Source: Neoarius graeffei (Eukaryota; Chordata; Actinopteri; Siluriformes; Ariidae). Taken from it: DNA of 64,000 bases. The position numbers were made by a program, and so were the translations under genes. The stretch is from NCBI RefSeq assembly GCF_027579695.1, contig NC_083572.1, positions 14,096,915-14,160,914 on the forward strand, in the 5' to 3' direction. The notes under the pieces were generated by a model that saw nothing but the letters and a program-made list of their open reading frames with translations, did not search any database and was not told the DNA's origin. Below are positions 27,981 through 63,939 of the stretch, piece after piece; position 1 is the first letter of the stretch, and each line of letters opens with the position of its first letter.

Positions 27981-28925
27981 TGAAAGAAGGGCGGCACGGT
28001 GGTGTAGTGGTTAGCGCTGTCGCCTCACAGCAAGAAGGGCCGGGTTTGAGCCCCGTGGCTGGCGAGGGCCTTTCTGTGTGGAGTTTGCACGTTCTCCCCG
28101 TGTCCGCGTGGGTTTCCTCTGGGTGCTGCGGTTTCCCCCACAGTCCAAAGACATGCAGGTTAGGTTAACTGGTGACTCTAAATTGACCGTAGGTGTGAAT
28201 GTGAGTGTGAATGGTTGTCTGTGTCTATGTGTCAGCCCTGTGATGACCTGGGGCCTCATGTACAAAGCTTGCGTACGCACAAAAAAGCTACGTACGTCAC
28301 TTTCTGCGCAAACATTCGTATGTACAAAGATTGACTTGGCGTGGAAAAGTGCGGTACTCTACGCAAACCTCATGGCTAGCGTACGCACATTTCTGGTGCA
28401 TCTTGGTACTTGGCGACACTTAGAGGCAGAGCAACGCAACTACATTTAGGCCTACTCGGTCAAGAGTCATGACATGGAGATAAGAGGCATCCAAAAATGC
28501 ATCGGAACATCAGGATGCGTGAATTGAAATGTATGTCAGTCATACGACATTGTCGAGACACATAATGCGAGACTGTTGGGTAAATGCCAACAGATCCATC
28601 AACCATCCCTTCCATATTGTAATTACGGGAAATGAGAAACCCCAGCAATATCATTTCGATATTATTCCCATTGACTATTGGTTAATTAATTAAATTAAAG
28701 AATGCACATGCAGGACCATGCATTGCAGCTAGCTTAATAGATCTTCCTCGCGCATTTGCCGCGAGGTGTCAGACTGAAATATTATTATTAGTTGATGTTG
28801 CGTGGGGTAGCCTTATCACATAATTACCAAGATCAATATATGAAACGATTTCCAAGTGTGTACAAATCAGACACAACCGCGGTGTGTGGGGACCAATCAC
28901 TAGCATGCATCAAATTAAATGAGGA

Positions 28926-28932
28926 TATAAAA
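28926..28932 (+). promoter_or_regulatory. TATA box of the Harbinger transposase gene
   Basis: TATAAAA lies 14-20 bp before the first ATG at 28946, with a further in-frame ATG at 28964. The close spacing may mean that translation begins at a later ATG. Confidence 0.5.
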
Positions 28933-28945
28933 GCATGCGCAATAT

Positions 28946-30086
28946 GTGGCGATAACCGATAGGATGACAATGGCGTTGTTAGCCTTATTGGAAGACGCTG
29001 CAAATGGTCGGATTAGGAGGGAATGGGTGTTCCGTGATTACACCGATTTCCTGGCTTACGATGATGACTGGCTTATCAGCCGATTCAGACTTCCAAGAGC
29101 CATTCTTTTGGAGCTCTGTGCTGAGTTGGGCCCGGGGTTGGAGAGGGAGACGGCGAGGAGTCACGCCTTACCCGTTCCTATCCAAGTCCTGACCACGCTT
29201 GGGTTCCTAGCAACAGGCTCATTCCAGAGGGAACTGGCCGACCGGTCGGGAATGAGCCAGACAGCTCTCAGCCACGCTATTCCGTCTGTGTTAAATGGAA
29301 TCATCCGACTGTCGGCCAGGTACATACGGTTTCCCTATGATGTGGCAGACCAAGCACAGATAAAAGCGCAATTTGCAGCGATAGCCAGTTTTCCAAATGT
29401 AATCGGAGTGATCGACTGCACGCATATTGCTATAAAGGCGCCATCTGAGGGTGAACATGTGTACGTGAATAGGAAACATTTCCACTCTATAAACGTACAG
29501 ATTATATGTGATGCCCAAATGCGCCTGACAAATATCGTAGCAAGGTGGCCTGGGGCGACCCACGATGCATTTGTCCTGGCGAACAGCTCGGTGGGAAACA
29601 GACTGGATGCCGGCAGAGTGCATGATGGGTGGTTACTTGGTAAGCAATCTAAAACACTTGAAGTGAATTCACTTGAAATATACACATGTTGGATAGCTTA
29701 TGCTGGACCTATCCCAATTGCTCATAGGAGACAGCGGCTACCCACTCCGAAAATGGTTACTGACCCCCCTAGCCAACCCACGGACTGATCAGGAGCAGCG
29801 CTACAACAACCTCCGCGCACGGACGCGGTCAGTGGTGGAGCGCACCATTGGCCACCTGAAAAGCCGGTGGCGCTGCCTTGACCGGAGTGGGGGGGTGCTG
29901 CTCTATCAGCCCGACAAGGCGTGCCGTATTGCGCTGGCGTGTGGCATGTTACACAATGTGGCGCAGCGGCACGGCGTGCCAATAATGGAGCGAGACCTGC
30001 CGGAGGACCCAGACCCTGGGCCTCACAACGAGGTGCCACAGCGACATGGCATACAAACCTGGCAGCGCTTAATAGCCACAATGTGA
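28946..30086 (+). CDS. HARBI1-like DDE transposase of the Harbinger element
   Basis: Cuts and pastes the element. Exon 1 is 28946-29639 and exon 2 is 29728-30086. The 88-bp intron has GT (29640) and AG ends, and the joined product is 350 aa, the usual HARBI1 length (human 349). A helical N-terminal part (residues about 75-125, with the SQTALSHAI HTH-like segment) precedes the RNase H-type DDE core. Core motifs are GVIDCTH with Asp157, WPGATHDAF with Asp207, and SVVERTIGHLK with Glu269. All three acidic residues are intact and no stop or frameshift is present. The start could be Met1, Met7 or Met9. Related transposases need the Myb-like partner encoded next door for nuclear entry and DNA binding. 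Confidence 0.9.
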
Positions 30087-30119
30087 AAAGGTAAGGGCAG
30101 ACGGGACACGGGACACCAT

Positions 30120-31272
30120 TCATTTTTTAAGATATTCTTTTAATGTGTTATTCAGTTCCTTCAATTCCTCGTGGATTCCCTCAAGGTTGTCGTTAATCGC
30201 CTCTATCCCCTTTAAAATTTCCCCCTGCGACTCAAGGACCGTGCGCGTCAGCACGCGGCCTGTGGACCCGGCGACAGGGGCAGGCGGTGGAGAAGGGGGG
30301 CAGGTGACAGTGACGCTGGATCCGCTCGGCTGGGGGTCCTCTTCCTGCTTGGGTGGGATGGACTGGGGGCCTCCTGTTGTTCCCTGGCACCCTGCTAGAA
30401 TACATTTGTCATTAAAATCCTATTGTGGAAAATATGTGCACATGTTTTATTTCTGGTTACATGTGGCTAGGAATATTGGGCCTACTAAGAGAGGAAGACA
30501 TTTCTTCAAATACAGGATGTCCCCGAAAAAATTTACACATTAGAGCACTAAAGGTGTTTTTTTGTTTTCAAAACCCATGTAACTCAAATAGACACTCATT
30601 GTGGCGCAGGCACTGCGGACGATGCGAATCATACCGTTATCTTGGTATAGGCTACATTCACATTCAGTGGCATACAATCAGTGACCGTTGCATGTCTCAT
30701 AGCATACACTTTGAACATCACTTTAATTGGAGGTGACAGAACAATTAAGTGATGTATGTGAATTCAATTACACTGTGCTAAAGGCAGGGATTTCAGTTCA
30801 CACATACTTTATGGCGATTTAGAGTATAGGCTACATTTTTCGGGACGCCCTGTATGAAAATGATTACAGCACCTGTGAGATCCTGCTGGGCCAAGTCGGA
30901 GTCCCCCTCTTCGGGCGGAACCACGCCGACTAATGCATGGTCACCGAGGACCGCGGTCACCCTCTGGTCGAACGGGGAGAGGGCCTCGACCCCTGGCCCA
31001 CCACCCGTTTTCATTGCGCTCCTGTGCTGCGCAGCCATCCTCCTTTTCACATCTTTGATGTCCGACCATTTTTTTTTAGTGTCGGCTGTGGATCGATTGT
31101 TGGCCCCAACTTGATTGATGACATTAGTTATTTGCTCCCAATTCAGACGTTTGGTTTTGGTGCTGATTCCGGAGGAGAGGCTTCCGAACAAGATCTTGTG
31201 TCTTGCCTCTACCTCTGAAATCAGCGCCTCCACCTCGCAATCTGTGAAATTTCTTTTTCGAGATTTCGCCAT
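30120..31272 (-). CDS. Myb/SANT-like accessory protein of the Harbinger element
   Basis: The partner protein of PIF/Harbinger transposases: it binds the element ends and brings the transposase to the nucleus in studied relatives. Exon 1 is 31272-30873 and exon 2 is 30394-30120, joining in phase 1 to 224 aa. Residues about 5-80 form a Myb/SANT-like trihelix (NFTDCEVEALISEVE, Trp45 in RLNWEQI, Trp69 in KKKWSDIK), as in NAIF1/MSANTD proteins. A Pro/Ser-rich linker follows. The last 40 residues (LEGIHEELKELNNTLKEYLKK) look like a coiled coil. The gene converges with the transposase; the two stop codons lie about 33 bp apart. The 478-bp intron contains a mariner-type MITE, which leaves both splice sites intact. 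Confidence 0.85.
30513..30852. mobile_element. mariner-type MITE in the intron of the Myb-like gene
   Basis: The termini are CAGGATGTCCCCGAAAAA and the complement of CAGGGCGTCCCGAAAAAT, with TA on both sides (30511-30512 and 30853-30854). CAGG(G)TGTCCC termini are typical of mariner elements. It has no coding capacity. Confidence 0.82.
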
Positions 31273-31305
31273 GTCTTTTACCTAACGCGGGCCTTACTGC
31301 AGGTC

Positions 31306-31313
31306 TATTTATA
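31306..31313 (-). promoter_or_regulatory. TATA box of the Myb-like gene
   Basis: TATAAATA on the minus strand, 34-41 bp upstream of the ATG at 31272, within 240 bp of the element's right terminus. Confidence 0.55.
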
Positions 31314-31599
31314 CTAATTAACATATTCAGTGTGGAATAATTGAGGGAGGAGACGGGGTGGGGAACGGGGCTCGTGCATGTGCGCCGAATTCCACGTTGA
31401 TTGGGATGTACAACAGGAGAGTGCGTGGAAACCTTCGTACGCACTGATTGATACATCCGGATTTTTTTGGTCGTACGCAAATTTCCCGATTTTGACGTGC
31501 GCACATATTTAGTGGGAAATCCACGCAGGTCTTTGTACATGAGGCCCCTGGCGACTTGTCCAGGGTGTACCCCGCCTTTCGCCCGTAGTCAGCTGGGAT

Positions 31600-32848
31600 A
31601 GGCTCCAGCTTGCCTGCGACCCTGTAGGACAGGATAAAGTGGCTAGAGATAATGAGAATGAATGAGATAATGTGAAAGAAGTGATTTTCAAAATATTACC
31701 CAGGATTTGCTGAGACAGATGTGAATTTAGGTGAGATTAAGAGTGAATTAATTATCTGGGATAATGAAGAAATCATCCATCCATTATCCGTAGCCGCTTA
31801 TCCTGTGCAGGGTCACAGGCAAGCTGGAGGTACACCCTGGACAAGTCGCCAGGTCATCACAGGGCTGACACACAGAGACAAACAACCATTCACACTCACA
31901 CCTCCGGTCAATTTAGAACCACCAATTAGCCTAACCTGCATGTCTTTGGGGGAAACCAGAGGAAACCCACACAGACACAGGGAGAACATGCAAACTCCAC
32001 ACAGAAAGGCTCCTGTCGGCCACTGGGCTCGAACCCAGAACCTTCTTGATGTGAGGCGACAGTGCTAACCACTACACCACCGTACCGCCCAGTCCAAAAC
32101 ATTATAATATAAATATGATAAAAGAAGGCGGTGTAGTGGTTAGCACTGTCGCCTCACATCAAGAAGGTTCTGGGTTTGAGCCCAGCAGATGGCGAGGGCC
32201 TTTCTGTGTGGAGTTTGCGTGTTCTCCCTGTGTCTGCGTGGGTTTCCTCTGGGTGCTCTGGTTTCCCTCACAGTCCAAAGACATGCAGGTTAGGATAATT
32301 GGTGTTGACCGTAGGTGTGAATGTATGCGCACGTGTGAGTGTGCAGAAAGGAACAGGCCAGCCTACCGCTGCAACTCTGGCCAAGTCAACTCAAACGTGG
32401 TTCGCCTCAAGCCTGGACCGGGTTCGGTGGTGACGACGATTTCGCCTCCATAAGGCAAGGTGGTCCATGAGTAGGCCAACTATCAACATTTTCTTTTCTA
32501 CAAACTAAAAGTACTCTGCTGTAGTCACCTAAATAATATATTTTTAAAAACTGCACAACAGGGGCGGCACAATGGTGTAGTGGTTAGCGCTGTCGCCTCA
32601 CAGCAAGAAGGGCCGGGTTCGAGCCCCATGGCCGGCAAGGGCCTTTTTGTGTGGAGTTTGCACGTTCTCCCCGTGTCCGGGTTTCCCCACAGTCCAAAGA
32701 CATGCAGGTTAGGTTAACTGGTGACTCTAAATTGACTGTAGGTGTGAATGTGAGTGTGAATGGTTGTCTGTGTCTATGTGTCAGCCCTGTGATGACCTGG
32801 TGACTTGTCCAGGGTGTACTCCGCCCTTCGCCCATAGTCAGCTGGGAT
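31600..32848. repeat. tandem duplication, unit A (1,249 bp)
   Basis: The sequence is repeated at 32849-34097 without visible differences over the unique part. The unit runs from a SINE tail through about 430 bp of unique sequence plus a diverged head-to-head SINE pair, into the body of another SINE. The break lies in the block AGTCAGCTGGGATAGGCTCC shared by all SINEs. Confidence 0.93.
31780..32345. mobile_element. two old SINE copies head to head (unit A)
   Basis: A diverged reverse copy (31780-32091) and a diverged forward copy (about 32126-32345) face each other across about 35 bp, forming a long imperfect inverted repeat. The forward copy ends in GTGTGCAGAAAGGAACAGGC rather than the usual tail. 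The same pair recurs at 33029-33594. Confidence 0.82.
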
Positions 32849-32915
32849 AGGCTCCAGCTTGCCTGCGACCCTGTAGGACAGGATAAAGTGGCTAGAGATA
32901 ATGAGAATGAATGAG
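32562..32915 (+). mobile_element. hybrid SINE at the duplication junction
   Basis: The left flank carries the 14-bp TSD of the SINE at 33811 (AAAACTGCACAACA). The right flank carries the TSD of the SINE at 27990 (ATAATGTGAAAGAAG, 32916-32930). The body switches from variants of the former to those of the latter after GGATAGGCTCC. Confidence 0.9.
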
Positions 32916-34097
32916 ATAATGTGAAAGAAGTGATTTTCAAAATATTACCCAGGATTTGCTGAGACAGATGTGAATTTAGGTGAGATTAAGAGTGAATTAA
33001 TTATCTGGGATAATGAAGAAATCATCCATCCATTATCCGTAGCCGCTTATCCTGTGCAGGGTCACAGGCAAGCTGGAGGTACACCCTGGACAAGTCGCCA
33101 GGTCATCACAGGGCTGACACACAGAGACAAACAACCATTCACACTCACACCTCCGGTCAATTTAGAACCACCAATTAGCCTAACCTGCATGTCTTTGGGG
33201 GAAACCAGAGGAAACCCACACAGACACAGGGAGAACATGCAAACTCCACACAGAAAGGCTCCTGTCGGCCACTGGGCTCGAACCCAGAACCTTCTTGATG
33301 TGAGGCGACAGTGCTAACCACTACACCACCGTACCGCCCAGTCCAAAACATTATAATATAAATATGATAAAAGAAGGCGGTGTAGTGGTTAGCACTGTCG
33401 CCTCACATCAAGAAGGTTCTGGGTTTGAGCCCAGCAGATGGCGAGGGCCTTTCTGTGTGGAGTTTGCGTGTTCTCCCTGTGTCTGCGTGGGTTTCCTCTG
33501 GGTGCTCTGGTTTCCCTCACAGTCCAAAGACATGCAGGTTAGGATAATTGGTGTTGACCGTAGGTGTGAATGTATGCGCACGTGTGAGTGTGCAGAAAGG
33601 AACAGGCCAGCCTACCGCTGCAACTCTGGCCAAGTCAACTCAAACGTGGTTCGCCTCAAGCCTGGACCGGGTTCGGTGGTGACGACGATTTCGCCTCCAT
33701 AAGGCAAGGTGGTCCATGAGTAGGCCAACTATCAACATTTTCTTTTCTACAAACTAAAAGTACTCTGCTGTAGTCACCTAAATAATATATTTTTAAAAAC
33801 TGCACAACAGGGGCGGCACAATGGTGTAGTGGTTAGCGCTGTCGCCTCACAGCAAGAAGGGCCGGGTTCGAGCCCCATGGCCGGCAAGGGCCTTTTTGTG
33901 TGGAGTTTGCACGTTCTCCCCGTGTCCGGGTTTCCCCACAGTCCAAAGACATGCAGGTTAGGTTAACTGGTGACTCTAAATTGACTGTAGGTGTGAATGT
34001 GAGTGTGAATGGTTGTCTGTGTCTATGTGTCAGCCCTGTGATGACCTGGTGACTTGTCCAGGGTGTACTCCGCCCTTCGCCCATAGTCAGCTGGGAT
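32849..34097. repeat. tandem duplication, unit B
   Basis: The second copy of the 1,249-bp unit. Its predicted frames at 32970-33317 and 33364-33702 are identical to those of unit A, so the duplication is recent. Confidence 0.93.
33029..33594. mobile_element. two old SINE copies head to head (unit B)
   Basis: An exact repeat of the pair at 31780-32345, shifted by 1,249 bp. Confidence 0.82.
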
Positions 34098-34162
34098 AGG
34101 CTCCAGCTTGCCTGCGACCCTGCAGAACAGGATAAAGCAGCCAGAGATAATGAAATGAGATG
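33811..34162 (+). mobile_element. DANA/Mermaid-like SINE (original right-hand copy)
   Basis: Flanked by its own TSD, AAAACYGCACAACA, at 33796-33809 and 34163-34176. It is internally about 10 bp shorter than the consensus at CCCCGTGTCCGGG. Confidence 0.9.
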
Positions 34163-34189
34163 AAAACCGCACAACATCCAAAAGGCTTT

Positions 34190-36555: not shown

Positions 36556-63939
<27,384 letters not shown>

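Follow-up and report, generated by a model that had tools for sequence, protein, structure and literature searches.

The question raised by this locus is whether it holds a whole PIF/Harbinger transposon that has moved recently or could still move, as a first-pass annotation proposed. We confirmed that a two-gene DNA transposon occupies positions 28251-31547 (3,297 bp) of the window, by which we mean the whole 64-kb stretch of DNA that was analysed, and that both of its genes are open. Very probably, it is a structurally complete cut-and-paste element from the Harbinger (PHIS) superfamily, within which the NuwaI group suits it best. Whether it still works is a separate matter, to which we return after describing its ends and its genes.

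The terminal inverted repeats (TIRs) are as perfect as had been claimed: GGGCCTCATGTACAAAG at 28251-28267 (plus strand) is matched at 17 of 17 positions by its inverted counterpart at 31531-31547 (minus strand). Beyond these 17 bp, same-offset similarity between the two element ends disappears at once; a second inverted pair, displaced and 18 nt long (89%), lies inside the TIRs at 28269-28286 and 31463-31480. With up to three mismatches allowed, the TIR occurs at only two places in the 64 kb, both of them element ends, against an expected mean of 0.15 (two or more matches arose in 2 of 100 shuffles). Neither this search nor BLAST found a further copy of the transposon in the window.

The exact CTG duplication reported earlier is likewise present, at 28248-28250 and 31548-31550, with the proviso that its length could be 1, 3, or 5 bp: CCTGG stands in both flanks (28247-28251 and 31547-31551), and equal ends would result whether T, CTG, or CCTGG had been duplicated. 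We chose the 3-bp reading because of the superfamily rule; the 5-bp reading would move the limits of the transposon to 28252-31546. The element sits inside a dispersed host repeat of ∼370 bp, of which the left part (27989-28250, plus strand) and the right part (31551-31657, plus strand) match other copies in the window. When the flanks were joined with CTG kept once, and the resulting 40-base empty site was searched across the window (up to 8 mismatches), it was found uninterrupted at 11 other places, six of them exact; of the remaining five, three have a single mismatch, one has two, and one has three. About nine of the 11 are independent, since two pairs sit in a recent tandem duplication. 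The 11 uninterrupted sites fix each transposon end to within one base. The ∼370-bp repeat is itself present in many copies on both strands throughout the window; its appearance suggests a putative SINE of tRNA origin, like Mermaid of catfish. The look of this repeat, the gene content, and the kind of element are what point to a fish as host.

The transposase gene (28964-30086, plus strand) consists of two exons, 28964-29639 and 29728-30086 (up to the stop), and encodes 344 amino acids without an internal stop. Its product matches the Pfam family DDE_Tnp_4 over the entire profile (1-158 of 158; E 2.7e-37). The catalytic residues are D151 and D201, encoded by exon 1, and E263, encoded by exon 2; the first-pass annotation meant these same residues, but its numbers (D157, D207, and E269) were a constant 6 too high. 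The predicted 88-bp intron (29640-29727) has GT-AG ends, and its removal rebuilds the GDSGYP motif exactly. Aligned end to end with an approximate vertebrate HARBI1 sequence, the transposase is identical at 130 of 338 aligned residues, and the D, D, and E positions coincide.

The Myb-like gene (31272-30120, minus strand) converges on the transposase gene and also has two exons: exon 1 (30873-31272) carries the Myb/SANT domain (Myb_DNA-bind_5, E 1.3e-17) and exon 2 (30120-30391) runs to the stop. Both this Pfam match and that of the transposase exceed the cutoff by a wide margin. The partner is open across both exons, as had been stated; its 223-residue product contains three short basic clusters. 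Its predicted intron is 481 bp long (30392-30872) and, like that of the transposase gene, has GT-AG ends, in agreement with the earlier claim of one canonical intron per gene; both introns were predicted from these ends and from the reading frame. The acceptor is a TAG-CAG tandem, and by reading the frame is kept with either. Among solved structures, neither the transposase nor the Myb-like protein had a significant match (best E 0.46 and 1.3). In the transposase gene we saw neither a stop nor a frameshift nor the loss of a splice site, in keeping with the earlier statement that it lacks a disabling change, and the same holds across all 567 residues of the two proteins. As far as the letters can tell, the label "apparently intact" stands.

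One feature absent from the first-pass annotation is a probable nested MITE in the Myb-like intron at 30513-30852 (∼340 bp), which has imperfect CAGG...GTCCC ends, recognized as inverted by reading, and a flanking TA. Support for it is moderate: when the two halves of this intron were paired, the best score was 25, a value that 8 of 500 resampled pairs attained (mean, 17.8; largest, 30). A BLAST search with slightly wider limits found no other copy of this MITE in the window. Since the nested insertion would be spliced out, it would not by itself disable the Myb-like gene.

Two observations bear on the age of the transposon. The host repeat copy that it interrupts differs from the local consensus at 8 of 369 positions (2.2%; the seven other copies differ by 0.27 to 5.22%), a figure to be read against a crude consensus built from eight window copies, which include the interrupted one and two from the tandem duplication and omit those that are incomplete or more diverged. 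The copy is older than the insertion that interrupts it, so this ∼2% divergence sets a rough upper bound on its age. The CpG observed/expected ratio is 0.836 in the element versus 0.681 in the remaining window; the value of the element is equaled or exceeded in 37 of 230 overlapping windows of its size and is thus above average but unexceptional, and CpG content is weak evidence on age. Taken at face value, the transposon looks fairly young. For the earlier suggestion of recent activity, what we can offer is indirect: open genes, and insertion into a repeat copy ∼2% away from the local consensus.

The rival that survives best accepts the structure of the element and its NuwaI classification and concerns activity only: the copy may be whole but dead, whether missense changes, the nested intron insertion, or silencing stopped it, and any movement of the family would then come from another copy. 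We judge this about as probable as its opposite. The probable 340-bp MITE speaks for it, as do a CpG ratio that is above average without being extreme (37 of 230 windows reach it) and a host repeat copy diverged by ∼2%, which would allow a long time since insertion. Against it stand 567 residues free of stops, frameshifts, and lost splice sites, and the retention of the DDE residues and of GDSGYP. That both proteins are functional seems to us possible but somewhat doubtful.

As to its group, the structurally complete element has both features of PHIS/Harbinger transposons in the broad sense, a DDE_Tnp_4-type transposase with D, D, and E and a second gene with a Myb/SANT domain, so that the earlier name "PIF/Harbinger" holds in that sense. 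In the strict sense it does not hold: the scheme of PMC4482050, as far as the consulted part of that source goes, reserves PIF/Harbinger for elements with a TWA duplication and defines NuwaI by CWG, and the site here is CTG (or T or CCTGG), as judged with the 11 empty sites. The same part of PMC4482050 describes NuwaI elements as having TIRs of 12-61 bp that usually start with GGG, a DDE transposase, and a Myb/SANT partner, and as living mostly in bony fish (12 of 16 host species). Our element shares all of this, with a CTG duplication at its one insertion in the 3-bp reading and a 17-bp TIR starting with GGG; it differs in being shorter (3,297 bp) than the NuwaI average of ∼4,462 bp given there. 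The C|TNA|G target of NuwaII is not present, because CCTGG contains no TNA. ISL2EU elements have a related DDE transposase, but they carry a YqaJ exonuclease partner and use an A|AT|T target, according to the portion of the literature at hand, in place of the Myb-like partner and CTG site found here. The NuwaI placement fits the sequence features that were compared, namely, target site, TIR, and Myb partner.

An improbable alternative is that the element belongs to PIF/Harbinger in the strict sense and carries CTG in place of TWA by chance. The two genes and their Pfam families are those of that group, and some authors do not set NuwaI apart (NuwaI goes unnamed in the main text of PMC9179366). 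However, TWA is contained in none of the 1-, 3-, and 5-bp readings of the target site, and the GGG start of the TIR is that of NuwaI as PMC4482050 describes it in the part consulted. Compared with one strict member, the zebrafish Harbinger3_DR, the NuwaI-like element shares the two genes, the DDE transposase, the Myb-like partner, and a repeated subterminal motif, but it lacks the TWA site and is a natural copy, whereas Harbinger3_DR is a reconstruction (PMC2836001 and PMC9710019, both consulted in part).

The first-pass annotation further argued that most fish Harbinger copies are MITEs, so that a copy with both genes whole may be recently or still active, and this argument from rarity is weak. 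The consulted portion of PMC9179366 reports two-gene Harbingers and their expression across teleosts, families that by description resemble ours in layout and host, although the word "intact" is absent from its main text. PMC4482050, in the portion available to us, counts 11 potentially active NuwaI families with both genes intact. In sea kraits, the natural vertebrate element Harbinger-Snek is described as having intact two-gene copies and, in one species, RNA reads over both coding regions of a single intact copy (PMC8437027, consulted in part); it resembles our element by that description and differs in its snake host. Together, these reports mean that a complete fish copy is probably not news. 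Our own searches outside the window, in contig collections that may omit records from the genome of the window itself, returned no relatives: in viral contigs, queries with exon 1 of the transposase, with the Myb domain, and with a pattern joining TIR and subterminal region yielded none (0 of 5 and 0 of 27 pattern matches confirmed; 0 matches), and of 105 pattern matches in prokaryote contigs none was confirmed. A literature search for 13 bases of the TIR, or for their complement, found no related report. Rfam gave no match in the window. Elsewhere in the PHIS superfamily, the Spy element is reportedly naturally active (PMC11304231).

The surroundings of the transposon bear on a further, very improbable explanation, that the element was misplaced into the host repeat during assembly. 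Its flank is rich in repeats and adjoins a tandem duplication, in which 31548-32914 recurs at 32797-34163 (unit, 1,249 bp); the 9 mismatches and 2 gap columns between the copies all lie near the two ends, leaving a core (31586-32873) without differences. This duplication (31548-34163) is either very recent or itself an assembly effect. The short exact target-site duplication and the TIR-to-TIR join are nonetheless a trace of transposition, not of misassembly. We also considered, and rejected, the idea that the transposon caused the tandem duplication: up to 32834 the middle repeat copy follows the right one, and from 32874 onward it follows the left one. This switch puts the crossover beyond the insertion, on its right, so that in our interpretation ordinary recombination between host repeats explains the duplication. 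As for a domesticated host gene pair of the HARBI1/NAIF1 type, which two open genes lying side by side might suggest, we regard it as next to excluded by the perfect TIRs, the target duplication, and the little-diverged repeat used as target, the domesticated pairs of insects being devoid of TIRs and duplications according to the part of PMC9710019 consulted.

A host gene recognized near the transposon is NTAN1 (N-terminal asparagine amidohydrolase), whose exons extend on the minus strand from 24372 to ∼5043. Several of them were found by tblastn with an approximate NTAN1 protein sequence (best E 2e-20), and exon 1, at 24372-24292 with a consensus donor, was found by reading; one exon matched Pfam with E 1.2e-4 and 21.7 bits, below the curated cutoff of 24. 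With exon 1 there, the structurally complete transposon lies upstream of the gene, 3.9 kb from its start codon. A candidate exon 1 at 58.1 kb, which would have made the element intronic, was discarded (E 15; no in-phase donor by reading) in favor of the better one at 24372-24292, and comparing the NTAN1 protein with the transposon interior gave only chance-level matches (E 6.5 and 9.4). The window also holds a fragment of a Tc1/Sleeping Beauty-like transposase at 48079-48519 (minus strand; Pfam matches below curated cutoffs) and a tandem array at 64-536 with a unit of ∼41 bp.

Within the NuwaI-like element, each gene is preceded by a TATA box: TATAAAA at 28926-28932 (plus strand), 38 bp before the transposase start codon, and TATAAATAG at 31305-31313 (minus strand), 41 bp before the Myb-like start codon. 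The two stops are 33 bp apart. Polyadenylation-like ATTAAA hexamers occur at 30411 (plus strand) for the transposase gene, within the Myb-like intron, and at 30144-30139 (minus strand) for the Myb-like gene, just before its stop; if both signals are used, the two transcripts would overlap in antisense.

The element ends also share a short motif. Five matches to CGTACGCA fall at four places, and within the window they are confined to the element ends, where they do not form an inverted set. In the left subterminal region (28270-28387, plus strand), the matches at 28270 (minus) and 28272 (plus) overlap to form one palindrome, and another lies at 28380; the right region (31436-31479, plus strand) has matches at 31436 and 31472. 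The pentamer GTACG/CGTAC occurs 10 times in 294 bp of element ends versus 1.04 expected under a first-order model (0 of 5,000 simulations reached this count), a figure that is somewhat flattering because the motif and the stretches were picked after the sequence had been viewed and each CGTACG is counted twice. The Myb-like protein of Harbinger3_DR binds a 9-bp subterminal motif, according to the consulted part of PMC9710019; on that basis, the CGTACGCA sites are likely candidate binding sites of the Myb-like protein described here.

By analogy with studied relatives, transposition would involve two proteins: the transposase would supply the nuclease, and the Myb-like protein would bind DNA and carry its partner into the nucleus. 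Each gene would be transcribed from its own TATA promoter toward the other. The Myb-like protein would then enter the nucleus, bind the repeated CGTACGCA-type motif, and bring in the transposase; the Harbinger3_DR counterpart is needed for nuclear location of its transposase, as stated in the consulted parts of PMC9710019 and PMC2836001. Using D151, D201, and E263, the transposase would cut at the TIRs and, with a stagger of 3 bp, insert the element at a CWG site.

The most ambitious reading appears unlikely: a naturally intact NuwaI-type Harbinger that still moves in a fish, has proteins recognizing CGTACGCA and targeting CTG, and would be for vertebrates what Ping/Pong is for rice. The transposon, real and ordinary, is very probably one more member of the described NuwaI group; what is new is the confinement of CGTACGCA to the element ends in the window, the two TATA boxes, the probable nested insertion in the Myb-like intron, and the place upstream of NTAN1. 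Here is a natural copy that is complete, whose ends are delimited, whose two genes can be read, and which carries a candidate motif for protein binding; cell assays could test it directly. Should it prove mobile, it would provide a system native to fish whose target, CTG, is unusual.
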